From positions 15,150,501 to 15,214,500 of the forward strand of contig CM065321.1 of NCBI GenBank assembly GCA_033032175.1: DNA of 64,000 nucleotides, in the 5' to 3' direction. This stretch comes from Saturnia japonica. Its lineage: Eukaryota; Arthropoda; Insecta; Lepidoptera; Saturniidae. Shown here piece by piece: positions 5,464 to 62,435 of this stretch (its first letter is position 1; each line of letters starts with the position of its first letter). The position numbers were made by a program, and so were the translations under genes. The notes beneath the pieces were generated by a model, which saw only the letters and a list, made by a program, of their open reading frames with translations, made no database searches and was not told the origin of the DNA.

Positions 5464-6553
5464 TTAGGTCCTTACATATTAAGAAATTAGCGTTTGTCGT
5501 AATGACCACTTTGATCTGAAATTTCTCCTCTGTGGTTAAGAATTCCAAATTTAAATTTATAAATTCATTTAGATTGTACATTAGAGTTTTGAAAACAGTC
5601 ATTCATTTGTTTTTCCTCATTATTTTTTTCTTTGGCGTCGCTTATTACCGCACAATTGAAAACATCAAATATCGGTATATTTACGAGTACGAGTTCTACC
5701 GTGGCACCAGTGCTGCAGAAACAGCTCGAATGATTAATGATGTGTACGGCGCTGGTGTCGCAAAAGAAAACACGGTACGTTTTTGGTTTCAACGTTTTCG
5801 TTCTGGAAATTTCTACCTTCAGTACCAACCCCGTGGACGGCCGGAGAACAAAGTGGAAAATAAAGAATTAAAGGCTATTGTGAAAGCGGATCCATCACAA
5901 AGCACTTCAGAGGTAGTAGTAGTAGGCTTCGGGGTAAGTGATAAAACTGTATTAATCCATTTGAAGCAAATCGGAAAAGTAAAAAAACTTGTTCGATTAG
6001 TACCTCATGAATAGAGTGAATCGAACTTTCAAACACGCGTCGACTGCTGTGTTACTTTGCTCAGCCGCCACAATAATGAAGGGATTCTAAATCAAATCAT
6101 TACTTGTGATGAAAAGTGGATACTGTACGATAATCGGAAGCGCTCATCGCAATGGCTGAACCCTGGAGACCCAGCCAAGTCCTGCCCTAAACGAAAATTG
6201 ACTCAGAAAAAGTTAATGTGAGTGTTTGGTGGACTAGCGCCGGTGTCGTTCCTACAGCTTTCTAAAATCTGGCCAAACGATTACGGCAGATATCTATTTT
6301 TAGCGGAATTTGGACAACTTCTTACAATGATAAAAATTCTACTCCGTTGGGCAGTCCAAACCGCCTTCAAAGAGTTTATTGATTCTCGCCCCCATGGTTT
6401 TTTTAGTAAAGAGATCAATGAACTACCTATGAGATGGCAAAAGTGCATAGATAACAACGGTGTATACTTTGATTAATTAAATATATTTAACAAAAAAAAA
6501 TTGACTTTATATTCCTTCCGTACAAAACGCCAATTTCATATGTAAGGACCTAA
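5464..6553 (+). mobile_element. mariner element (cecropia-like), internally deleted, TA target duplication
   Basis: Terminal inverted repeats start TTAGGTCCTTACATAT on both sides, flanked by TA (5462-5463, 6554-6555). Transposase remnants in order: helix-turn-helix (AETARMINDVYG, VRFWFQRFRSGNF), frameshift and stop near 6014, CDEKWILYDNRKRSSQW with the first catalytic Asp, VWWTSAGVVP-type strand, then a jump directly to the C-terminal LPMRWQKCIDNNGVYFD. The second and third catalytic acids are missing, so it is dead. Confidence 0.88.
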
Positions 6554-23600: not shown

Positions 23601-26600
23601 CAATAAAACGTAACTTACAGTTTTAGCTTGTTGTTCTAGGATTCTAATGTAACTAATCCAATTATTTGATATATTGACGTGATGTCGTCCGCCACTCGTC
23701 GCGCTATTTTTAGGTGTATTTGAATTTATTTTTTTGGTATTTATATCCGATTTTTATTGCTAATATTTTAATGTAATACTAGCGCTAACTAACCATGAAT
23801 AGGTAAGGCCTCGTAGCCGTTGCCTGCAAGCATTACATCGTGAAAAAATACGATTGCTATTATTATAATAAAACTAAGTTTGCTTTCAGATGTATCCCCT
23901 TCGTTGACTATAAATCAATGAGACATGGATTTTAGAGTAGTAACTAGTAAGGAAGGAGACAACACATCTGTTTGACACTATTTTCTCAGAAACAAAAATG
24001 AAGCTAAATGTAAAACATGCCAAAAAGTATTGAAATCAGCCGGTGGTAGTACTAGCAGTCTACTAAGACATTTAAAGAATATTCACACGGTTGATATAGA
24101 GGCTGCAAGGCATTCAACAATCGAAACAACCGCTCAAGGTAGTGCATCTTCTTCAAAAGAAATTCCCGAAGCGCCAAAAAAGAAAACTAAGTTGACACAC
24201 TATTTTGCTTACTTAATTACTTATGTACTTAATTGCTTAATTACTGATGCAAACCCAAGTATGCAGGTTATGGTGTCTCGTATGGCTGCAGTTGATGGAA
24301 TTCCTCTTAGAACGTTCTCTAAATCTCAAGATTTAAAGTACCTTTTTGAAAAGACCGGCAACAAATTACCCACTACTGCAATTGCAATTGCAATTGCAAC
24401 ACAACTGCAATTTAAATTATATTAGAATAGTAGAATAGAAGACTAGAACTATTCGTTAATGAGAAGAAGAGTTTTATTAATGTTAAAATTATTTGTGATA
24501 CTACAAAAATGTCTTTTGAAGATATTATTTTTATTAGCTTTTAAATACAATAAGTGAATGTTACCAAAATAATTCATTTAATGTTAAAAGTAATCTCTGC
24601 AAGTCTGTGATTTAAAAAAGACTAGATTACTTACTAAGTTTTAAGATATTCTGAAGAAAAAATAAATCTTTATCACTTTTTTAAACATTAAAACTGTTTT
24701 TATAATTTGTAAAGTACTGTTTAATTTATTTAAATTCTTCCTCATCCTTTATATTTTGTACTCATTGTAGGAAATCAATATATAAACGCAGATTAGTGTA
24801 TTTTAAAAAATTACAATAAAAAGATCGAAATGCTCGAAAAAACCGGTCTACCCGGGTTTTGATTACTCTTAAACCCGAAAACCCGGGTTTTCAAAATTGA
24901 ACCGAGTTTCGATGCCCTACTTATCACTCAGTTTATATCATAATTCTTTCTTTCATTTTCTCTCCCTCTCTCTCTCGCTGACCGAGTACTATTTCCGTTC
25001 TTATTGCGTCAGCAACGTTGCGTATACACTGTAATTCGACTTTGAAATTTTACTCGGCGCCTCACCTAAAGAAGTTTTAAATGAAAAATACAATAACTCA
25101 CCAACGACCTTCCATCTCTCCACCTGCGTAACCAGATTCATCTTCTCGGTCCAAACGTTGAGGAACTTGTTGAGGACTTTGTCCGGGTCGGAGTCGTACT
25201 CGGCGAGACCCTGGGCGGCCTCCGCGATCGCCTTGTAGAACAGATCAGTCGACAGCAGTATGACACGCGAGACTAGGCACAGCTGCACTGATAGGACCAT
25301 TGGAAGATCATCGCTCTCTAACAAGCAACTGGAATTATAACATTTCTTGTCTTCAGAACACATTTTCATGTCTGTCTCTTCGATACGTGTTTTTACAATC
25401 GATTTTAAACAGATTTTGCCGATGATCTAGAGTTCTTTAGGGACTCCAAAACAGCTGATCGGCTGGACCGAATTTGATGAATTTTTCAGACAATCTTCAT
25501 ATTAACACAGCGGGTGATCCTGTAAACATTGGTAGAGAGAACGAATCCAAAAATTCGGATTCACAGAAACGCATGGCCGGGTTTACTAGTATAATAATAT
25601 ATACTTGGTGTCTCGTCTGTTTGTCTATTCGATATAAATGTTATAATAGATTTAAAACTATCTCATGTTGATTCTCGTCTGGTTATGTTATGTATTATCT
25701 GATTACGTCATGTCTTGGTTATAATCTCAAGACGTCGATTGCAAAATTTCACACGCACAATATTACAAAGCAGAATATAGAATATAGAATAAAATTTTAA
25801 AAATGATATAATATACCTATCTGTCTATTAGCATGCACCCCACATATTTCATTATCATTTTTTTTTAAATACTTTTTAGTCAACCTTTAAGATCGATTAT
25901 TATTTGTCGATGCAAATAAAATTTAAGTGTCTATTTGTAATGTCAAAATAACCGCTTTTTACTAAATGCATGTGGCATTATGTAAGGCGCTTATAATAAA
26001 AAACTTCCCTTGATTTGTTAAATTTTCAGATTTTTAAATAATAAGAAAATAACACCGGTTACATTTAAATAGTAATCGGTAAATACCGGTTATAATTGTA
26101 ATCGGTTCACATCACTAACAAAGACTTTTTCTTAAAATGTGTCTGCACATTAAAAAAACACTAACTATTTGATAACAAACGTAAAGAAAGGTCCTTAAAA
26201 AATGTTAGGTAAGCATAAAAACACTAACCGTATAGCTCTAATAAGTATGGGCCATATAACTTTGACGCCCAGGAACGCGTTCCTCTCGGGGAAGGTCACG
26301 CTGATGCATATCTCTGCCATCTTGAGCACGGTGATGACGCCCTCCGTCCTCATATCGCTCAGCATGTCCTCGAGCAGGGCCATGCATTTCCCTCCGGCGC
26401 CCGAGAGGAACTCTTCGGGGCACAGGAGGGTATACGCTTGCATTATATACACTACGATGCGGAGATGTTCTGACGATTGTTCTGGAAATAAATCCACATA
26501 CTTAGTCTTGCCATAAATATTGGTACAAGGAAAAAACTTTTTTTTTCTATTGAATAAATCATTTATTACTGTAATGTGTGTTAGTTTATACATTAATATA

Positions 26601-29600
26601 ATAACAATATATGAAGCTCATTCAAAACGATCGCCATTAGCTTTAATACAGTTCTTTAAACGTTGAGGCCAGTTATCAATGGAAACACGCACTTTCTCCA
26701 TGAGGAAATTCTCCACTGCCAATCTTATGGATTGTTTTAGGGACTCCAAATTATCATGGCGTTTAGAGCATGCCATACTTTCTAAAATTGATCATAAATC
26801 ATAACCCAGCGGATTAAGATCGGGACTAGATGACGGCCAGTCTTCAGCTCTGATGAAGTCCGAAACGTTCTTTTCCAACCACGCTTGAGTGGATTGAGCT
26901 TTTGACCCGGTGCTGAGTCTTGCTGAAAGGACTATTCTTGGTTATGGAACACGATGTTGTTAAGAGGCTTAACCACCTTCTCAAGAATCGTATCTTGCGA
27001 TGTTTTGATACATTTTTCACAAAAATATGGCTCAGTCACTCCTTGATAGCTAACACCACACCAAACCATCACTGAAGTCGGATAATGTCCACGTTGTACT
27101 CTGCTGACTAATTGGGAAGCTTCTATAGAGCTTCGAGCATAAACTCGGTCATTCTGCTTGTTAAAACATTGCTCAATAGTAAATAATTTCTCGTCAGTAA
27201 ATAACATTTTTCTTTGACCTACCTTTGCGTATAGCTTAAGAAGATTTTTTGATTTTACCACCCTATTTATTTCTAAATTATCAGTTAAATAATGACCAGT
27301 GCATCTCTTAAAGGTTGCAAGTCCTAAGTCATCGTTTAAAATATGCGACATGGTTCTAGGTGCTATATTCATTTCCCGAGATAAAATCATTTGCTTTCGG
27401 ACAGGATTTCTTCGAATTTTTTCCTTCACTGTTTTGATCGCCTTTTTTGTACGAATACTACGTGGACGACCAGATTTTTTTCAGTCACAAGCAGAGGAGG
27501 TTTCATTGTACCTACCAATAGCCCGGTATACAAATATTCGACTAATACCAAGAGGACGTAGAGTTTCAAAAATTGCATTTGGTTCCCTACCTACTTTGTG
27601 TAATGCTATCACAGCAATTCCGTTATCTTTATCACCCCACTCCATTTTAATATCACAAAAATATTTAATACCGATTGGCCCGAAAATGAAAAAACACAAT
27701 GAATATTCATACAGGTGGGCCAGAAAGATTTGCGAATTTAAAAAAACTAAATATTTAGTTAGTTAGATCCGTACTTCTAGGCGGCCATGTAATGTCACAT
27801 CGGCGCGATATCAGTTTTCTAGCAAACATCTCGTTTACGGCCGCCAACGAAGCATTAGATGTATGGCATGTCGCACCATCTTGTTGAAACCACGTCGCAC
27901 GATTATAGGCTTCAAATTGTTGCAGTTGCGGAAAGAAAAATTCCCTTAACATGGCTATGTATCGGTCGGAATTTACAGTGACAGATTGGCTTTGTTGATT
28001 TTCAAAGAAATAGGGTCCGATAATTCCATGTGCTGATATGGCCGCCCAAACGGTTACTTTAAGCGAATGCACAGGCTTTTGATGTTTTGCACGTGGGTTC
28101 TCTGCAGCCCAGTAACTGCAATTCTGTTTATTGACATGCCCATTTAAGTGAAAATGGGTTTCGTCGGAGAACAGGATATTGTTGAAACTCTGAAAGCGTT
28201 CCAACATTGTTTCAACAAAATCTCGTCATAAAATTCCGTCATTTGACAGTAATTCCTGCACAAGTTGAATTTTATACGGGAATTTGAATTTTAAATGCGA
28301 CGCAAAGATGTTCTGGACACCACAAGTTCAGCTGATCGCTTGCGAGTCGATAGACTATGATTACTTTGAACTGAAGCTCTAACTTGTTCAATTGTGTCTT
28401 CGGTTCTTGTTGACCTTGGGCGTCCTTAGGCATCTGTTTGAGAGTCGAACCAGTAGCTTCAAACTTTCTGACCCACGATCGAATCACACTTTCCTTCGGA
28501 CACTGATTTACGTCATGTAATCCAAACTCACGCCGAAATAAACGTCGAACAATAGCGCACGAATCGCCATTTTTTTTCCGAGAACCGAGCTTCTCATCCC
28601 CACCACACGCGCAGCCCCCGCTCATAAAGTTCAAACGCAAGAGTGTTTTTAAAATCGTACGCCTTTCTGGCCCACCTGTATAAGAATAACAGATTGCAAA
28701 TTCAAATATAGTATTTTTTTTATTGTAATAATATTTATGGCCAGATTAAGTATAATACTTACTTCGACTGCATTGACATTTTTTTTTCATTGTACTTAAT
28801 TACAAAGTAAAAGTTAAGTTAAGTATTGGCGACTTCAAATGCAGAGTAATCAACAGATCTATATATTCTCCACATACAGTGGTTCTACAATAACATTACT
28901 CGAGCCAGTTTCCTCACTATTATGCCAGTCCAAACCACTCGATCACCACGACCATATAATAAAATAATATAAAACAAACAAACAAACTCACCCAATATGG
29001 GGTATAAATTTTCAGCCAGCTGTAACGTGGCTGAATCAGCTACCTGCGAGGTCTCGAGCACAGCCAGCCACAACTCCATCGCGTCCTCCAGGAGGTACAC
29101 GTGCGCCGGCTCCGATAGCTTCGTCGACTCGTCCACAACAGTCAGCATCCACGAGCGGATCTCCGTCGCGCATTCTCCCAAAGCCTATTATATATATATT
29201 TATTTACTGTAGCTCTATTGACGTTATTGTCCCTGATGATAAGCACAGTACAATTGAAACACAAAGGCGGCCACCGAGAGATCGAATTCCATCGGCGGTC
29301 GCGGTTGTCATGCCAGCCTGTATCCATGTTACGCTTAAAGGACCCATGTCGTAATAAGGAGGAAACACACTGCCCGGGAGAAGGTTCCACAGCTTCACGG
29401 TACGACGGTTTGATGCCTTGCTTTTTAATTTTGATATTTTTATTAAACTATCTATAAAAGAAAACTTTGCTCGTTTTAAATATCTGCACTGCGGACTTTT
29501 TTATTCTCACGGAGTAAATTGACAATAACAAATGTCAGACTTGAAAATAATGTTTCCAAATTTATTTGTTTAGAGTTGTGCTTCCATATATTTTAAAATA

Positions 29601-50623: not shown

Positions 50624-53600
50624 TTTTTTTTTTTTTTTTTTTTTTAAGAACTGACTACACTGTTAGCCTTAGGGGCCCTAAAGCCGCTGCGGCTTTTACA
50701 GCTTCACCGGACTTGGGGGCGAGCGCGGAGAGCACTCAGCCACGAAAGTTATAAGGACGACTCGCACGAGGGCGCCAGAGTGGCCGGACCTCGGCTCGGG
50801 CGGTCGTCGCGTACGCAATTAAGTCGCAAACTAACTGAATCCCTACACCTACGATTCGAGCTAACTCAATTATACACATAGGCACGTTCCCTTCCTCCTG
50901 GGAGGAAGGAAGGAACCATGCGTATGTGTATTCAGTAATCAGAAATGTTTCCTACACTAACTAGCGCTAACTAACTAGCGTAAAAAAAGAAAAAAAAAGG
51001 TCCCTCACAGAACCTATGTACCTGTGTGGTGTGCACGTGTGTTTGTTCATACGTGTGTAATGTTGTATGTGGGTAACTAAGTGCTGCACGTATAGTGTCA
51101 CTTGTATCGCGCGGGCGGATGCCTGACCCAAGGGTTTCATACCGAGGAACGGACCTAGGCTTGGGTCACCCGCTAAAGAGGGTGAACGTATGGAGTGTGT
51201 GCGGGAGCGAATTTGACCGCCCGTCCTCTGCGGAGAGAACGGTGGTTACGCGGGCGTGGGCGCTGTCACGCTCTATTTGGAGAGACGAATCGGTATATTT
51301 TATTGTACATACGAGAATAAAATTTTGCGCGGCCGGTGTTTATGCCGGGTGGTCGCGTGTTTCAGAGTCGAGACGGTGTAACGTCTCGACGAGGTGGGGG
51401 AAGGCGCATATGGTCTTGACGAGACCGTAATGCTCTAGGTGGTCATTGTAGTCCATGACCTCCTGAATGCCGTGTTCACGAAGGAGCAAGATCATGATGT
51501 CGTTGCTCGCAACGTTGGAGGGAGCGCGGGGCACGGAATTGTTCGTCGCCATACGAGGCTGTGGATTAGGGCGACGGGGCCCCCATGCGTTCGGAGCCGA
51601 ACGCACGGGTTGTGATTGACCGCGAGGCGCGGGAGGGCCGGCGGCGGCCGGGATCTGGCGAGGCACTGGAAGCGCAGGAAATTCCCCTGGCGCCAGCAGG
51701 GGTTGCGCTCGGAGGGCTGAGGCGGGAGGCGCCGCCCGGGGGGCCGCCTGCCTCTGGTACCGAGGCCGCGTAGTGCGCGGAGCTTTGGGGCAACCGCGAT
51801 AATTCGCAGGGTGCCCCTCCCCTTCGCACAGTACGCAGCTCGGGGGGGTGGTGGAGTCACGCTCGCGCGTGCACTCCCTAGTAGGGTGGTCCTCTCGGCA
51901 CTTGACGCACCGCGGACGAAGATGGCAGTTACGGGCGGCGTGCCCGTAGAGCTGGCAGTTGTGACACTGCGAAGGCATGTGGGTTTTGTATGGGAGCTCG
52001 ACGGTGACGCCGGAGAGCCCGCATACATTTTCCAATTGAAAGATTGCCTTTCCCTCGGGGGAAAGGTCTAGGATGGCCACTACCATTTGTAGAGGCCGCT
52101 TCTCCTTGTTGTACATTCTATGTACCTCTCGGATAGGATAATCTTGCTCCGCGAGCGAGGAGCACACCTCCGCGGGGCTGACTTCCACCGGAATACGGCG
52201 GATCACCACGCGGAGGACGCGCTCCTCCGCAAGGGAGTAAGTGAAAAATTGAAGCCCTCTCTCCCGGAGGAGGGCAGTGAATTTACGGTGAGTATCCGAC
52301 GAACTCACCGTAACGGAAATACCATTAAGGGTATTTCGAGCTTTGTGGTATGGCAGGTTAAGCCTGCGCAACTCATTTACCAGAGTCGTCAAAGCCGCTT
52401 TGTCCCGGACGATAATAGGAGGTGGGGGGCGCTCTTTTTTCCCGACAGCGGGTGCGGGGAGCGCGGAGGACGCGGAGGCGACGGCGCCACTGACCGTTTT
52501 CACGGTTTTTGTTGCGCGAGACGGTTGCGCAGTTGGACTAATTCGCGACGGGCGTTTGCGCGACGCGACAACGGTAAAACCGTCATTTGGGGCCGCGGTA
52601 TCCATCTCCGGAGACGAATCCGGGCACGCGGGTGAGTCTAATTCGACCGGAAGGGCCGAAAAAGAATTGTTTGTTTTCACCGCGGTTTCTGTGGAACGCG
52701 CGGGACGGACGTATGGGCTATTTTTAGCCGACCTAGATTGGGACCGCGAATTGCGCGGCCCTCGCCTAACGGACGCGGGACTTGACCCGCGCGAATGGCT
52801 AGTCGGGACTGGGGGCGTGGCTACGGCCCCGGATGACGCGACGGGTGGACGCGCGACGCTATCTACGTCTCTCCACGACGAAACGCGTGGAGGCGCGGCG
52901 CCGACGGGTGCCGCGTCAGTCGGCTTGACGGTTGCGATATTTGCGACAGAGGGCGCATCGCTCGTAGAAGCGGCCCCCTGATTGGTCGCGGCGGACGGAC
53001 GCGCGACGTTGCCTGCGTCTCTCCACGACGCGACACGTGGAGGCGCGGCGGTTACTGGCGCGGCGCCAGTCGGCCCGGCTGTCCCGGCAGAGGGCGCACC
53101 GTTCGCATAAGCGGCCCCCTTATTGGCTGTGGTCGCAGCGGTGCGACGCACATTCGGAGTTTTCGTCAACGAGTCGAAAAACTCGTCTTCGGCCGTAGGG
53201 TAACGCACGAACATAAAGTTCCGATATTTTTGGTGTGCGAGTTCCATCGCTTGTATTCTGTCCTGTTGATCGCGAATGCAAGCAACCAGGTCTTGCATAT
53301 TTTTTGCCATTTCGGCGGCATTGGGTGGGGTTTGGGACATGTTTTTAATTGAGGCCTCCCTGCCTTAGGGGCAGGGGGGTGCGCCAAAAATTAAATACGA
53401 CTATCCGAGTCGGGCAAGAGTCCTGTGGTCAAGGTGCAATGACACACAGGAAGAACCTATCGGCCCTAAGGAACCCTAGCAAGCCCGGGACTGAGGACGC
53501 AGACCGGTAGTTAAACCGGGCTAGGCCCAAACAGGTTCCCGGGGATGGAGTGTGCAGGATCGGAGGGTTTGGCAGGAGACACCTGGGGCAAGACTATGCG

Positions 53601-54849: not shown

Positions 54850-55590
54850 GCGGACAGCGAGCGGGGCGAGTGAATAACGATAGTGTAATAGTATAGAATG
54901 AACAAATAAATGAAATAATACGTGTTAGGAATAAGGTTTATAAATACGTGTTAGGAATAGATATAATAATATGAACTGAATATATGTATTTTAAAACGAT
55001 TAGAATAAGAATATAGCTAGTTGTAAGTTTAAATGTATAAATTTCACTAGTTGTAAGGATGAACCATGCCAGACTCGGAACATCTGGCATGGTGACTCAT
55101 GGTACTGCCGAGAGCGCGCACACAGGGCGTGCGCGCTCATTGCCTGAGCGACGCCCCGCACGGAATCCATCGCACTACCGGTTGCGAGGCAAAGGGCGAG
55201 GTTAAATATAGCGGAGAGGGCGGCAGTACTGCGATCAGTTCGAGAAACACTACAACAACAGCAAGCAGCGAATCTGCGATCAGTTCGAGAAACACTACAA
55301 TAACAGCAAGCAGCGAATCTGCGATAAGTTCGAGAAACACCACAACACCAGCAACAGCAAGCAGCGAATCTACAAGCAAACTACAGTCAAGAACGTTATT
55401 AAGAAACCACATTGTTACTACGAACTACTGTAACTTTGTAAGAAACAAGAATAAAACAAGCGCTATTAATTTAGCACACATTAAAATATTGTGGACGTCT
55501 TTTATTCACAATACGTCTATTAATACGTCATTGGACGTAGTCACAAAATTACTATTATGGATATCGACTGAAACAATGTGGTTTAGATGT
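54850..55590 (+). repeat. LTR-like region with promoter, tandem repeats and polyadenylation signal
   Basis: TAAATATA at 55203-55210 in a GC-rich context, three repeats of 45, 45 and 51 bases at 55231-55371 (GCGATCAGTTCGAGAAACAC... AGCAAGCAGCGAATCT), AATAAA at 55450-55455 and a downstream T/G-rich stretch, the order found in a retrotransposon LTR. No second LTR, primer site or pol gene is visible, so it would be a solo LTR. Boundaries not fixed. The DNA transposon at 55601 sits next to it. Alternative: a stand-alone promoter of an unrecognised transcript. Confidence 0.4.
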
Positions 55591-55620
55591 TATTATAATT
55601 GAGTCGTATAATATCAAAAA

Positions 55621-55870
55621 CGGCGTTCTCCATTTTAGTAACATTTGAAATAAACAGGAAAATTGTTTTTTTTTATTCTTTAGGCGAAATTTGGAACATT
55701 TTTTTTAAATTATACTTCATAGCTATTGTCCTCAATAATTTAAAGGAATTAAAATAGATGTATGGAGAAAATACATGAAGAAATCTTAAAAAAACCATTG
55801 GAGACTGCCGACTTTGTTAGGCACTTTTGGAGACTGCCGAGTCTGATAGTAACTGTGTTGGAGATTGCCG
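55621..55870. repeat. Left subterminal GGAGAYTGCCG repeats of the 55.6-59.1 kb transposon
   Basis: The 11-base motif occurs at 55621-55631 (minus), 55800-55810, 55829-55839 and 55860-55870 (plus), the last three about 30 bases apart. Right-end copies are at 58551-58560, 58582-58592 and 59076-59086. Clustered short repeats near both termini are the usual form of transposase-binding sites. Confidence 0.7.
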
Positions 55871-56187
55871 TTTTTGACACAATCAACGCCATCTTTAAAT
55901 CATACAAAAAGTGAGCATGTAATCTTGATACTGTATGGCAGATTCAGGTAGGTTTAGCAATATAAAGCAATCGCAAGAAATAGTACACAAATTGTTATAT
56001 TGAACCTTGAAAATATCCTGAAATTTTTATACTTCACATTACTAAATTAGGATACGTTATTTATTGATTATATTTGATGATTACACATAATATCATAGCA
56101 TTTAGGCAGTAAAAATAAAACTACATTTTTAAATATATAAGAATTTTTATAAAAAATCAGTACTTAATCATCACAATAAAAACTAAA

Positions 56188-58415
56188 TTATATTCGCAAA
56201 ACAGGCTCCTCATTCTGACATTGACATAAGACCTCATCTACATGTCCATGCGTTTCATTAGATCCTGTAGATTCATCTTCTGTATTTGTAGACGCAGTTA
56301 TTAAAGATTTGTAGAACACCAATTCCTTATCTTCGGTCCAGTTTTCTCCGTAATGTTTTACTAATAATTTCTTGACGTCTAATATCTTATTTGTGTTCAC
56401 GTGCCCAGACGAACTTACTTCGCCAACCCTCATCGTATAAAAGGTTTTTGTTTTTTTTGTTATCGCTCTATATATTCCTTCACTTACTTTATAAAACAAA
56501 TCGCCCTTTACTACCACATTATCTTTGCTCTTCGTTCTTTTGATAAAAAATCTTTTACATTTTTGAAATTGTAAATGCCAGTGACCGACATCTTTGACAA
56601 AAGTTTTCGTAGCGTTTCTCCGATCATAAACTTTAAAGTCAACTCCTAATTTAATAACAGTACTGTAATTTTTTATTATGTTCAAGTATTCTTTTGGATT
56701 TTTGATTATTTCTCGTTTTCGTATATCTTTTTCTATCATTCCAAATACTCGATCCGGCGGTATAAATGAGTGTCCTACTACAAGGAATACTATTTGAACA
56801 TTTTTTATGGTGTCTGGGACATTGTTTGCCAGCCACTTAGCTAACATTGTCATCATGGACGTATTTTTATTTTGTCCACCGCATCTATCCGCGATCAAAC
56901 GTACCGTTTTCATCCCACAAAAATCTGTTGAACAAAGTCGGTGGAATACAGCTGAGGCAATTTCATTTGAGCCCTACGCAAAAGTATCTTCAGTCCAGCA
57001 ATAAGCAAATACATTTTCTTGTGAAAGTTTGGTTTTAGAACTGCCTTGAACAATGGTGCAATTATAAAGGTATAACTGTCTAGAATAATATGTGCTTTGA
57101 TCAGGCAGTTTAGGCATAGGGCAATTTTTTTGACAATCAAAACAAAATGTCATCATATCATCTTTTTCTTCGCGAACCAAATCAAAAAATGCTTTTATTC
57201 GCAATTTATGCACTCTTCTTTCTATCATTATATTATTTCGTTTTGATGTATCTTTCTCTACTTTCAATAATTCATCATACTGCAAACAAGTTGAACAGAC
57301 ATCCGTTCGTAGCGAGCCAAATCCCAAATTAAAATGCGTATTAAATATCTTTCTGAAATATGCCTTTTTCACTTTTAAATGACTCTCTGCTGGAGCGTTA
57401 TACATACGCCACATCTTATTAATGTTAAGGTCAGCTGCTAGATAAAATCTTTTTGTTTTACCTCGACAATAATGAGGCTCATCGCAATTGAAACTACCGA
57501 TAAACGTCTTTACAGCAGCAAGTTTTTCTCTGAATACAAATTCTTTGCGATTACCTTCGCACCGTTCAGTAATTAAAGAACCAGTTTTAAAAAAATGTTT
57601 CATTATTGTTAGAATTCTGTGTTTCGTGATTTGCAATATATTAAGAAATGCTAACTGACAAACAGGAATAATGCGTTTCTGACTTAAACAAAACACCTTA
57701 AATTTAGTCTGTATAAGTTTCCGTTTATTAGAATTCTGTTGCCCTCTGCGTCTTTTTATATTTTTTGGTTTGCAATATTTTAAAATAAATGCATCTTGAG
57801 ATACTTTTTCTAATTTTTTGTAAAACATTTCGTAAAAGTACTTGATGTCCCCCATCGTTAATGATCCACATTTAAAAGCATTAGTGTTGTGTTGACGAAC
57901 TGGTAAACTCTTAGAAGAATACCTGTAAGGAAACAGCATCTGATAAAACCTATAAATACTGATGAAGTTCAAATCAGTGTTTTAGTCGTGAAAATGTAGG
58001 AAAAAACACAATTTCGCATTAATAATATTAGTAAGAATATGTTAGCTATAGCTAAAACTTGTATCTCCGATAATAAGCTTTGATCATCGGAATAGTATAA
58101 ACTAAAAACTAAGGATTATCGTAGAAGCCCAGCATAGATATTTTAAGTTAATTATTGCTCCTAATAACATATATTTACTTGTTTGTTATAAATACATTGA
58201 AGGAATAAATATAATATATTATTATACTTACATACGTAATAAATAATCTAAATAACTAAAAATCACAAAAACAATAAATAAAAAATTTCAAAGTATCAAA
58301 ATTGTGTAAGCGTTGCGTACGAACCTCGCCCGTTTCTTCATGTTTACTGTCCAATTATCTGGATTCTTCTGCCGTTTTCTTGATTGTCTGGGTAGACACG
58401 GTGACACGGGATGTT
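56188..58415 (-). pseudogene. Transposase-like gene (RNase-H-like, DUF7869-type) with one in-frame stop
   Basis: Two exons are visible: 58415-58325 (basic, RQSRKRQKNPDNW then MKKRAR, a likely nuclear-localisation/DNA-contact segment) and 57922-56188, joined by GTTCGTAC...TTTCCTTACAG in closing phase. The second exon is one continuous frame of 578 codons with a single TAG at 56976-56974, ending LRI and TAA. Candidate catalytic acids are Asp in CFDCQK (57136-57138), Asp in IADRCGGQNKN (56887-56889), and Asp (56752-56754) and Glu (56731-56733) in GHSFIPPDRVFGMIEKD. This D...D...D/E order is what DDE/RNase-H-fold nucleases show and, as I remember it, is the conserved core of proteins labelled DUF7869. 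CSTCLQYDELL gives a possible metal-binding pair. A further 5' exon with the start codon is expected between 58416 and 59070 but not identified. Confidence 0.75.
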
Positions 58416-58768
58416 CTATAATTTAAAAGAAACAATAGTTTTGTTTGTTTTATCAAAAATATACAGCTAAAATCATTAAAAACCAAGAGCAAATTCACCA
58501 TTTATCAACTTCGATCCCATACTAAATTCTAGTTCCTGATTGGCCGAAATGGAGACTGCCATGTTAGAAATCAACACACTAGGAGAATGCCGCTTTTGAA
58601 AATTACCTTAAAGTTTAAAGTGGTTTTTAATAGGAAGATTACCGTTTCTGTAAGAAAGTTCTTCTTCTTCTTCTTCTTCCTAACTTGGCAACCAGTCCTC
58701 TTTAATGAAGATCATTACTGCCATTATCGAGTGAATTATATTGTCATGTGTTATGACGATTCAGTATC

Positions 58769-58995
58769 CTAACAAGATGGTGGCTCCCTTGTTAGAACTT
58801 TCTAGGAAGTTCTTGTGGGATCTCGGAATGAATGCTTTCAGCTTATATTTATAATACACCTCACTTATGCACAAAAACCAAACAATATCAAGCAAAACGC
58901 CACCAATATTTCATAATATAGGGTTGAAAACCTAAGTAAATGAATTAAAAATAAAAATCACAACATGTCACTTCAAGATCCCGCCAAAACCCCCT
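58769..58995 (+). repeat. Hairpin-headed dispersed repeat nested in the transposon
   Basis: Begins with stem CTAACAAG...CTTGTTAG around ATGGTGGCTCC and continues through CACTTATGCACAAAAACC to CCCGCCAAAAC. A full second copy is at 47468-47705 and a diverged one at about 36708-36860. No coding capacity; family unknown, perhaps a small Helitron-type or SINE-like unit. Confidence 0.6.
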
Positions 58996-59106
58996 GTAAG
59001 AAAGTTATTATTCAAGATGAAAACTTTGATAAAAGACAATATTTTGGCATTGATAACTTATTTTTGGCCAAATGTGGAGATTGCCTTTTTTGATAATATA
59101 CGACTC

Positions 59107-59570
59107 AATTATAATGGTCTCTAAATCTATCTGATAACAATATACTTGTAAAGGATAAATATTATTTGTGTGAAAATGATATAAATTAATATAGTAATTG
59201 CAGAACAAATATCAGATATGTAAAAATCTGGATAATTTTAAAATAAGGATATTTTACTAAAACACCTAATTTTATTTATTAGGTAATTTTCTGGCAACTC
59301 TACATTCAGGTTATAATGCCACCTAGCGGCGTGAAACAGAGCCGAGAATCATTCAAGTTTCATTGCGTTTTACTCCTTTTAATTGGAAAAATGTATTCAT
59401 ATTATAATAACTTCGTTTAATTTTTCTTAAAAATAATTGCTGTTTTAATAAAGAACTCACAGTTTTTTATATATTTAGTTTTACTCAATGTATATTTAAA
59501 AATGTGTTGTTGACAACTTCCTTTTTCCATTACTTTTTTAAGATAGCGGAAGTGGTTGGTCCGCCATAAT
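59107..59570. other. Upstream region of the Hrb27C-like gene
   Basis: AT-rich sequence between the transposon and the likely 5' UTR (about 59570-59647, GGTTGGTCCGCC...CCGGTGCCAACC). No clear TATA box. Promoter assignment is by position. Confidence 0.35.
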
Positions 59571-59647
59571 CATTCGTGTGGGTCTGTGCTTGTGTGGTTT
59601 GGGTGTCTTTACCGGTGCCAACCATTATTTTTAATTAGTAGTAAGTT

Positions 59648-59685
59648 ATGCGTATGAATCCAGACATGGACGATGATGAGAAGGG
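59648..59685 (+). CDS. Hrb27C: Hrb27C-like coding exon 1
   Basis: 38 nt; starts at ATG 59648 and ends AAG GG|GTGAGT. The acidic MDDDEKG directly before the RRM is like the start of Drosophila Hrb27C. A second in-frame ATG lies two codons on. The preceding 80 bases (from about 59570) are relatively GC-rich and are the likely 5' UTR. Confidence 0.82.
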
Positions 59686-62435
59686 GTGAGTTTGTTTAAT
59701 AATATTTCCCGAAATCTTAATGACCATGTTTTGTGATATGCCAACTATAATAGGTCAATCTGGCGTGTTCGCTTGGTGTGTCGCATTTCACGGATAACCA
59801 GCAAGGCTTACAAGATATCGTAATGTGATGTTTAAACTGTATCGGATTGTGTAGTTACTAGTAATGATTCTATTTCCTATATCAAATGCTTATCTATTAA
59901 GTTAAAAGCTATGAAGTGAAACTTTTACTTCATGCCGGGTAGCGGGCACCGACCCCAAGCCTCGACATACGAGTTGCGTGGTGCGATCATGGCAGCTATA
60001 ACTTCCCCATGATATTTGACAAAGATATACACATTATCCAACTAAAATTTGCATACAAACTATTTATATAACTGTAAATGAGCAGAAAAGCCGTGATGGA
60101 TTATCATACATACTGTAGAAAAATTAACATTTCTGTGACTAATCATTACTTTCTCTTATCTTTGATTTCGTCTTATAGATTCGCGATATTATGTTTTGCG
60201 TTAAAACTTAGAATTTAGAAGAATGTTTTGCAAATGAGGTTATTAGATCAATGTTCGAAGTGCCGCGTAGCTCGGTCTCGATTGCCTACCTACAAGACGC
60301 GAAAGGTGCTGATTCATTTGCATATGGTAACATACGTTGCAGAGTTATTTTCCCAAACGTTAGTGGTGTAATATCCATAACGTCGTCGCATGTTACTTTC
60401 GCGCGTTGGTTTGTCGTTCCGTACGCTTCATGGCTTATTTTCATATAACTACCATGAAAAATTCATTCATGCGGTCATAGAAGGGCTTATGCGTGTGTCC
60501 TTTTCTGTTATCATATTGATTTCAACTACGATACATTTAACGTGATTGATGATAATCAACATGATTCAACTTAGACAGATATCTATCTGCCTATTAGACA
60601 GTTGGTGTTAATTTTGATAATAATAGTTTATAATTGAGGTTATGACATTTGCAGGAAATATGATGTATCAATAAAGACCATGATACACTTGCGGCTCAGA
60701 AAATATTTAATCCATTTTGAATTTTATTTTACCTATCATAGAGTATAAAAATGATCTAACTCATATTATGCACAAAAATTACACAAACTTAACCTTGTGT
60801 GTTAGGTTGATAAAATATGTATTACAAAGTTAAAAAGAAAATAACTTGGTCATGATTAAAAAGGCCACTAGAAGGTCGAAAGCTCTGGTGGATTGAACTT
60901 ATAGTACATGTTAAAAATCTCCATGTCACTAAAGTGAATGTCACTTTCACTTTGTAATTGTGCTTAGCAAGCTGCTTCTTACTGTGCTGAATATAATGAG
61001 ATTGTTTGTATGGCATCTTCTGAAAATTATTTCCACAGTATAAAGATTAGATAAATTATTTATTAATGATTAAAAAATATTGCAAGAATTTTTATTTCTG
61101 GTGTTAGTTTGTTTACCTATAAATTATTGATAATAATGAGCCATATTCAAAGATATTAATTATTCTTTAAATATATTGAATGTTTGTTATCTAACTAGGA
61201 TTTCTTTTGCCATGAGATAGCAATTGTCTGACAGACGACTTGTGGCCTCAATCTGAACTTAAACTTTGTACATTTGTTTTAGTAAACCATTCCTTGCTCC
61301 AATTTTTTTCTTTATCAGTGTAAATATAACTTGGTTTATTATTTAAGTATCCCTTTAATATGTATATATATATATACATATGTATGTATGTATGTTAACA
61401 TTTATTTAACATAGCAACAGTACTTTATAGTTGTTTTTTTACAGTGTTGTTTTTAAAAATGCTTATGAAAGTGATCTGGGTCATGTAACTTAATGTGTCT
61501 CATTTATACAAATTTTTCTTTTTTTTTTTTTAATTATATTCAATGAAATGTACTTCATTAATTTAATTTTCAATTAGACTATTGTTTATAAACCCAATGA
61601 CGTTTTTATTAATAGACTCATAATATAGTCTCACTAAAAGCAATTTGAAAATGTTACAAATTTTGTTACCAGCATGTTGAAAACATAAGGGATAGAAAAA
61701 ATCACAGCCTAATGCTGAACTCTGTTGTTTAAAAAAATTGTATTTTTCTTAATGGTTGCCATGGGTTTCAAGTTGAAAGTGAACAGAGGGCAATTGCCCA
61801 CCATCAACAATTGTAAAGAGCGTCAATTCCATATCTACTTATAAAATATGATTTTATAAACCACGTTTTTTTTTGTACACTACTACACTTAAGAGATATG
61901 ACATACCAATAAAATATAAACTTTAAAATAGCTGTCCTAAAAAGTATGCATTTTTGATTTGTCAGCATAGTATGTTTCAATCATTATATGGAATTGTATA
62001 CAGCTCATTTTATAGTAAGTGTATAGAGGAGAAATCAGATATTTGCAACATGGAAGAATGGAGCACCTGTGCATAGACTGTTTTCTCTTTTACGGGTGTT
62101 ATATAAGATGTTATCCAGACTGTCCATGGCTGGCTAAATTCAATTGTATCCAGCTATATTCAATTTTCCCTAATGTTGGTTATGTAGACATTTCCATCAA
62201 GTATTGATTGTAAATTATTATTGTAAAACAGAAAACTGTTCGTTGGAGGTTTGTCATGGGAGACATCGCAAGAGAATTTGCAGCGCTATTTTTCGCGTTA
62301 CGGTGACGTCATCGACTGCGTGGTCATGAAGAACAGTGAGTCTGGACGTTCGAGAGGTTTCGGTTTCGTCACCTTCGCTGAGCCATCGCTAGTGAACGTT
62401 GTGCTGCAAAATGGGCCTCATCAACTTGATGGCAG
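59648..62435 (+). CDS. Hrb27C: Hrb27C/hrp48-type hnRNP (two-RRM RNA-binding protein), 5' part, runs off the window
   Basis: Nuclear/cytoplasmic RNA-binding protein of the hnRNP A/B class; the Drosophila orthologue controls splicing and mRNA localisation and translation. Coding exon 1 is 59648-59685 (MRMNPDMDDDEKG, phase 2 donor GTGAGTTT). Coding exon 2 is 62232-62435, encoding the first RRM from RNP2 (KLFVGGLSW) through RNP1 (SRGFGFVTF) to QLDGR, leaving in phase 2 before GTAAGAGA. The RRM sequence, especially the GDVIDCVVMKNSESGRSRGF block, is the closest remembered match to Hrb27C rather than Musashi or DAZAP1. RRM2 and the Gly/Asn-rich tail must lie beyond 64000; nothing matching them is seen in 62436-64000. 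Confidence 0.88.
62232..62435 (+). CDS. Hrb27C: Hrb27C-like coding exon 2 (RRM1)
   Basis: 204 nt. RNP2 LFVGGL and RNP1 RGFGFVTF are both intact, so the RNA-binding surface is complete. Acceptor TTGTAAAACAG, donor GTAAGAGA. Confidence 0.92.

Follow-up and report, generated by a model that had tools for sequence, protein, structure and literature searches.

Transposons of the Sola superfamily, as described in the excerpts on which we draw here and for each paper cited below, encode a transposase with a DDD (three-aspartate) core and create 4-bp target duplications (PMC10741241). Their inverted ends span 11-1124 bp, and the elements are mostly 2-9 kb long (PMC10741241, PMC3627910). Sola2 duplications from two slime-mould species are AT-rich and follow the pattern AWWT, as in ATAT, AAAT and ATTT (PMC3627910); an excerpt from another report writes the Sola target as 'AT', which may mean either an AT-rich or a 2-bp site (PMC5704228). 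Moth Sola insertions in a baculovirus are tabulated in PMC4735498 and PMC6983493; in the latter, Sola tops one table of chimeric reads, and most full-length insertions there are piggyBac. Here we analyse a 64,000-nucleotide stretch of the Saturnia japonica genome (GenBank assembly GCA_033032175.1, contig CM065321.1, positions 15,150,501 to 15,214,500; hereafter the window), which carries a transposon whose gene encodes a protein with the domain of unknown function DUF7869. With considerable confidence, we interpret this locus as the decayed remnant of a cut-and-paste transposon that has recently been active, has a DUF7869 protein of the DDD(/E) type as its transposase and is most likely a member of the known Sola superfamily.

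Judged from its ends and from lengths, the whole element occupies positions 55601..59106 (3506 bp, no strand assigned). A preliminary description of this DNA had placed it at 55592..59115; the element itself stands, but those outer coordinates included flanking bases. Alignment bore out the 32-bp terminal inverted repeats reported there: the left end (55601..55632, plus strand) and the right end (59075..59106, minus strand) pair from GAGTCGTATA inwards and agree at 28 of 32 positions. Scanning the window with the 20-base end motif returned 2 matches, where shuffles expect 0.01. The element is flanked by the 4-bp target duplication AATT (55597..55600 and 59107..59110, unstranded). The preliminary description had allowed for either AATT or the 8-bp palindrome ATTATAAT as a palindromic target duplication. 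Only AATT survives, because the 13 other two-ended copies share just 4 bp, several of these duplications being non-palindromic; ATTATAAT is thus a coincidence of the flanks.

Subterminal TGGAGAYTGCC repeats were delimited on the plus strand by repeat-family analysis of the window, three on the left (55799..55877, at 55799, 55828 and 55859) and three similar ones on the right (58550..58651, at 58550, 58581 and, more weakly, 58633). Six copies of this motif (GGCANTCTCC, which corresponds to plus-strand TGGAGAYTGCC in the window) lie in the same orientation, three towards either end, in 12 of 12 aligned elements, and we consider them candidate transposase-binding sites. The length of the window copy includes a nested, SINE-like (short interspersed nuclear element) insertion of 333 bp with a TTC-rich end (58661..58993, unstranded), bounded by the 13-bp direct repeat CTGTAAGAAAGTT at 58648-58660 and 58994-59006 and absent from the preliminary description; the 11 other aligned copies measure 3169-3202 bp. 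A repeat related to this nested insertion adjoins the copy L015 (85% over 224 bases).

When the genome (580 Mb, 402 contigs) was searched, the further copies with the same ends that had been anticipated were found. We examined 17 close copies, namely the window element and L009-L024, and 14 of them have both ends; excluded from the end count were L014, which has no valid end pair, and L023 and L024, with one end each. A further, weaker left-end match in L016 had no duplication and was discarded. A perfect 4-bp duplication, for which the chance rate of a match is about 0.5%, flanks all 14 two-ended copies. It reads AATT in the window copy, L010, L015, L016, L020 and L022, ATTT in L009, L012 and L021, AAAT in L013 and L019, ATAT in L011 and L017, and AGCT in L018. 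The window copy is 98.4-98.6% identical to 11 other copies, nine of which are 99.5-99.9% identical to one another, with L015 and L019 at 98.7-99.1% to the rest. Such near-identical copies indicate recent activity.

Genome-wide, the 20-base end has 32 exact occurrences. Allowing as many as 3 mismatches gave 205 forward and 205 reverse matches; since a reversed control gave 78 and 96, many of these loose matches are due to chance. Miniature inverted-repeat transposable elements (MITEs) with the same ends had also been expected, but no such family could be established in this genome, where we verified a single internally deleted derivative, L045 (1582 bp, with AATT on both sides). A second group of ends, GAGTCGTATAAAATCAAAAG, is present at 12 listed places in the genome, for example L046, L047 and L048, preceded by AATT in the first two and by ATAA in the third.

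We also looked for sites without the element, using flanks fused over a single copy of the duplication. Of 40 scored places, four proved to be flanking sequence of the window copy and of L020; the remaining 36 span the junction of L020, an insertion that sits within a dispersed repeat. The best match to that junction covers 92 bases at 86% on contig C30. Five of the 36 places were fetched and aligned; all lack the element and have AACA or AACT where L020 has AATT. The empty site for L020 is paralogous, not orthologous. The search with the window insertion's own flanks found no empty site.

The ends enclose a single gene on the minus strand, predicted to contain one intron, in keeping with the single spliced gene first proposed. 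In our two-exon model (58419 to 56188), whose splice sites were read by eye and are predicted, exon 1 (58325..58419), with a donor site predicted by eye from the copy alignment, and a predicted intron of 402 bp (57923..58324) precede exon 2 (56188..57922), which encodes the DUF7869 domain and is interrupted by one in-frame stop codon. A splice joining two long open frames was considered and rejected, as these form one common frame split by the stop codon at 56974-56976; copies without this stop exist. The ATG of exon 1, lost in the window copy, is present in 11 of 11 other copies. In six of these 11 (L009-L013 and L015), joining the exons gives an uninterrupted frame of 612 or 613 residues; in L017-L020 the transposase frames are broken, and the exons of L021 were not joined by our script. 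The window copy is dead, and intact copies exist elsewhere in the genome.

According to the preliminary description, proteins with this core have no annotation beyond a domain of unknown function; this was borne out, and the domain proved to be DUF7869 (PF25273), matched at 38.1 bits by the C-terminal frame and at 41 bits by protein P0001 (cut-off 26 bits). The three acidic motifs noted earlier are present in the window protein and conserved. The RNase-H-like, putatively catalytic core spans residues 262-450 of P0001 (56632..57198, minus strand) and contains D282, D365, D410 and E417. The three aspartates are conserved on a predicted integrase-like fold, as is E417, so that either D410 or E417 may be the third acid of the putative active site. 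Our conservation script had no usable frame in L025, L027, L028 and L033 and is silent on the acids there; a separate alignment makes two of the acidic motifs visible in L025, L027 and L030. Fold prediction, another check proposed at the outset, gave a core resembling DDE recombinases, retroviral integrases included. A sequence search of solved structures returned only two carboxypeptidase chains (E about 0.8), and Foldseek against viral models gave no match at E <= 0.001.

The genome also carries more distant DUF7869 elements, whose matching stretches share 35-55% identity with the window protein, or 41-42% where the match is longest; two groups of them, families B and C, could be traced by aligning copies with one another. 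The 20 distant loci, L025-L044, comprise nine of family B, five of family C, four of family D (L032, L034, L038 and L044, with the right end not resolved) and the untraced L033 and L035. L043 of family B, which lacks the left end, and L036 and L041 of family C, which do not have both ends, were omitted from the end counts. Family B has the ends GAGGGGTATAG and 4-bp duplications in 8/8 two-ended copies (AAAT three times, ATAT twice, and ACTT, ATCT and ATTT), and family C has the ends CAGGGGTATAG with duplications ATAT, ATGT and ATGT in 3/3 copies, read by eye. In both, the DUF7869 gene lies between inverted ends, an architecture like that of the window element. Homologues devoid of flanking repeats, which the preliminary description had named as refuting its interpretation, were not found in the traceable families; family D, L033/L035 and L049/L050 stand outside this count. 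L049 and L050, whose open frames are 937 and 721 residues long, represent a deep DUF7869 lineage; they are 99.8% identical over 4932 bases, with the right end outside the fetched stretch.

That the DUF7869 protein is the transposase of this element, as the preliminary description had supposed, is well supported, because it is the product of the only gene found between the defined ends, 14 copies combine these ends with the gene, two further families are built alike, and the predicted fold is DDE-like. The protein might instead be a passenger on ends moved by another element's transposase, and the genome does hold related ends of another, untraced group. Yet DUF7869 is the only gene found and is open in 6/11 copies, it lies between inverted ends in two more families, and its core is predicted to be DDE-recombinase-like; we therefore hold a passenger role to be very improbable. 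As the transposase, the protein would presumably bind both the inverted ends and the TGGAGAYTGCC repeats located near them. The element would be excised and joined to its target with a 4-base stagger and a preference for A..T, and repair would convert the stagger into the 4-bp duplication. Binding, cutting, joining, catalysis, and cut-and-paste rather than copying are what we infer.

The idea of a poorly described transposon family found no support, since the features match published Sola elements (PMC10741241, PMC3627910, PMC4735498, PMC6983493, as excerpted); in all likelihood the element is of a kind already known. Like Sola, it has 4-bp duplications in 14/14 close copies, 8/8 of family B and 3/3 of family C, and 32-bp ends and a 3.2 kb size that fall within the Sola range; its core may be of the DDD type too, with E417 conserved beside the three aspartates. 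Membership is likely, nearest to Sola2 by the duplications. The AWWT pattern of Sola2 is seen in 13/14 close copies (the exception being AGCT), 6/8 of family B and 1/3 of family C, whereas AGCT, ACTT, ATCT and ATGT lie outside it. Sola3 and Kolobok target TTAA. Unlike these and piggyBac, none of the 25 tabulated copies has a TTAA duplication. Mos1/mariner differs by its 2-bp TA duplication (PMC10741241, in part), and here the Pfam match is to DUF7869 only. Alternatively, DUF7869 elements could form their own unnamed superfamily of eukaryotic cut-and-paste transposons distinct from Sola, characterised by ends (G/C)AGNNGTATA, a DDD core and 4-bp duplications of the A..T type. Pfam and NCBIfam tie the protein to DUF7869 alone (the sole Pfam family matched; 0 NCBIfam families for 2 proteins), no paper in the limited literature collection searched mentions DUF7869, and the comparison with Sola is one of descriptions rather than sequences. 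In the length and sequence of its duplications, its size, its inverted ends and its probable DDD core, the element nevertheless agrees with published Sola, which makes a separate superfamily unlikely. Least probable of all is a Ginger-type element, although an integrase-like core would account for the retroviral-integrase fold match and Ginger1 also duplicates 4 bp. In the excerpt of PMC2836005, Ginger1 targets CCGG/CCGT and Ginger2 the 6-bp RTATAY, and both have TGTNR ends and an H2C2 finger. The ends here begin GAG or CAG (GAGTCG in the close copies), the targets are A..T, integrase families match 0/40 proteins, and neither Gypsy-integrase sequence nor an H2C2 finger is seen.

Beyond the probable Sola kinship, the analysis contributes a new family whose ends are exactly defined, corrects the duplication and gives DUF7869 a role. 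A domain so far listed as unknown is assigned a function, and in three families of a single genome it is linked to precise DNA ends and a target rule. If the element is Sola, DUF7869 would be a Sola-type transposase core, and the DUF7869 group would be among the host transposons that enter moth baculovirus genomes. Because near-identical full-length copies exist, an activity test is practical. Among the best 120 protein relatives listed, 20 bear a species name, and we take these to represent 15 moths or butterflies, four beetles and one leafhopper; databases label such proteins as ordinary hypothetical or DUF7869 proteins, but they should be regarded as transposons. The domain was found in 0/14 control genomes, and 0/51 pattern stretches among viral contigs and 0/52 among genome contigs were confirmed as further carriers.

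Elsewhere in the window, a short imperfect direct-repeat array with AGTTCGAGAAACAC (55212-55380, by eye) lies left of the element. Four frames mark other mobile elements or their relics, with Pfam matches to HTH_48 (Mos1-type; 5520-6014), zf-BED (23976-24425), DUF4817 (28272-28745) and the gag-like PRE_C2HC (51340-53364). Some 0.5 kb beyond the right end of the element, 59559-59686 may be the first exon of a host gene (by eye), with a GTGAGT donor downstream of an ATG at 59648. A match to an Importin-11-like TPR repeat at 25001-25426 (32.8 bits, cut-off 27) is probably a host importin exon.
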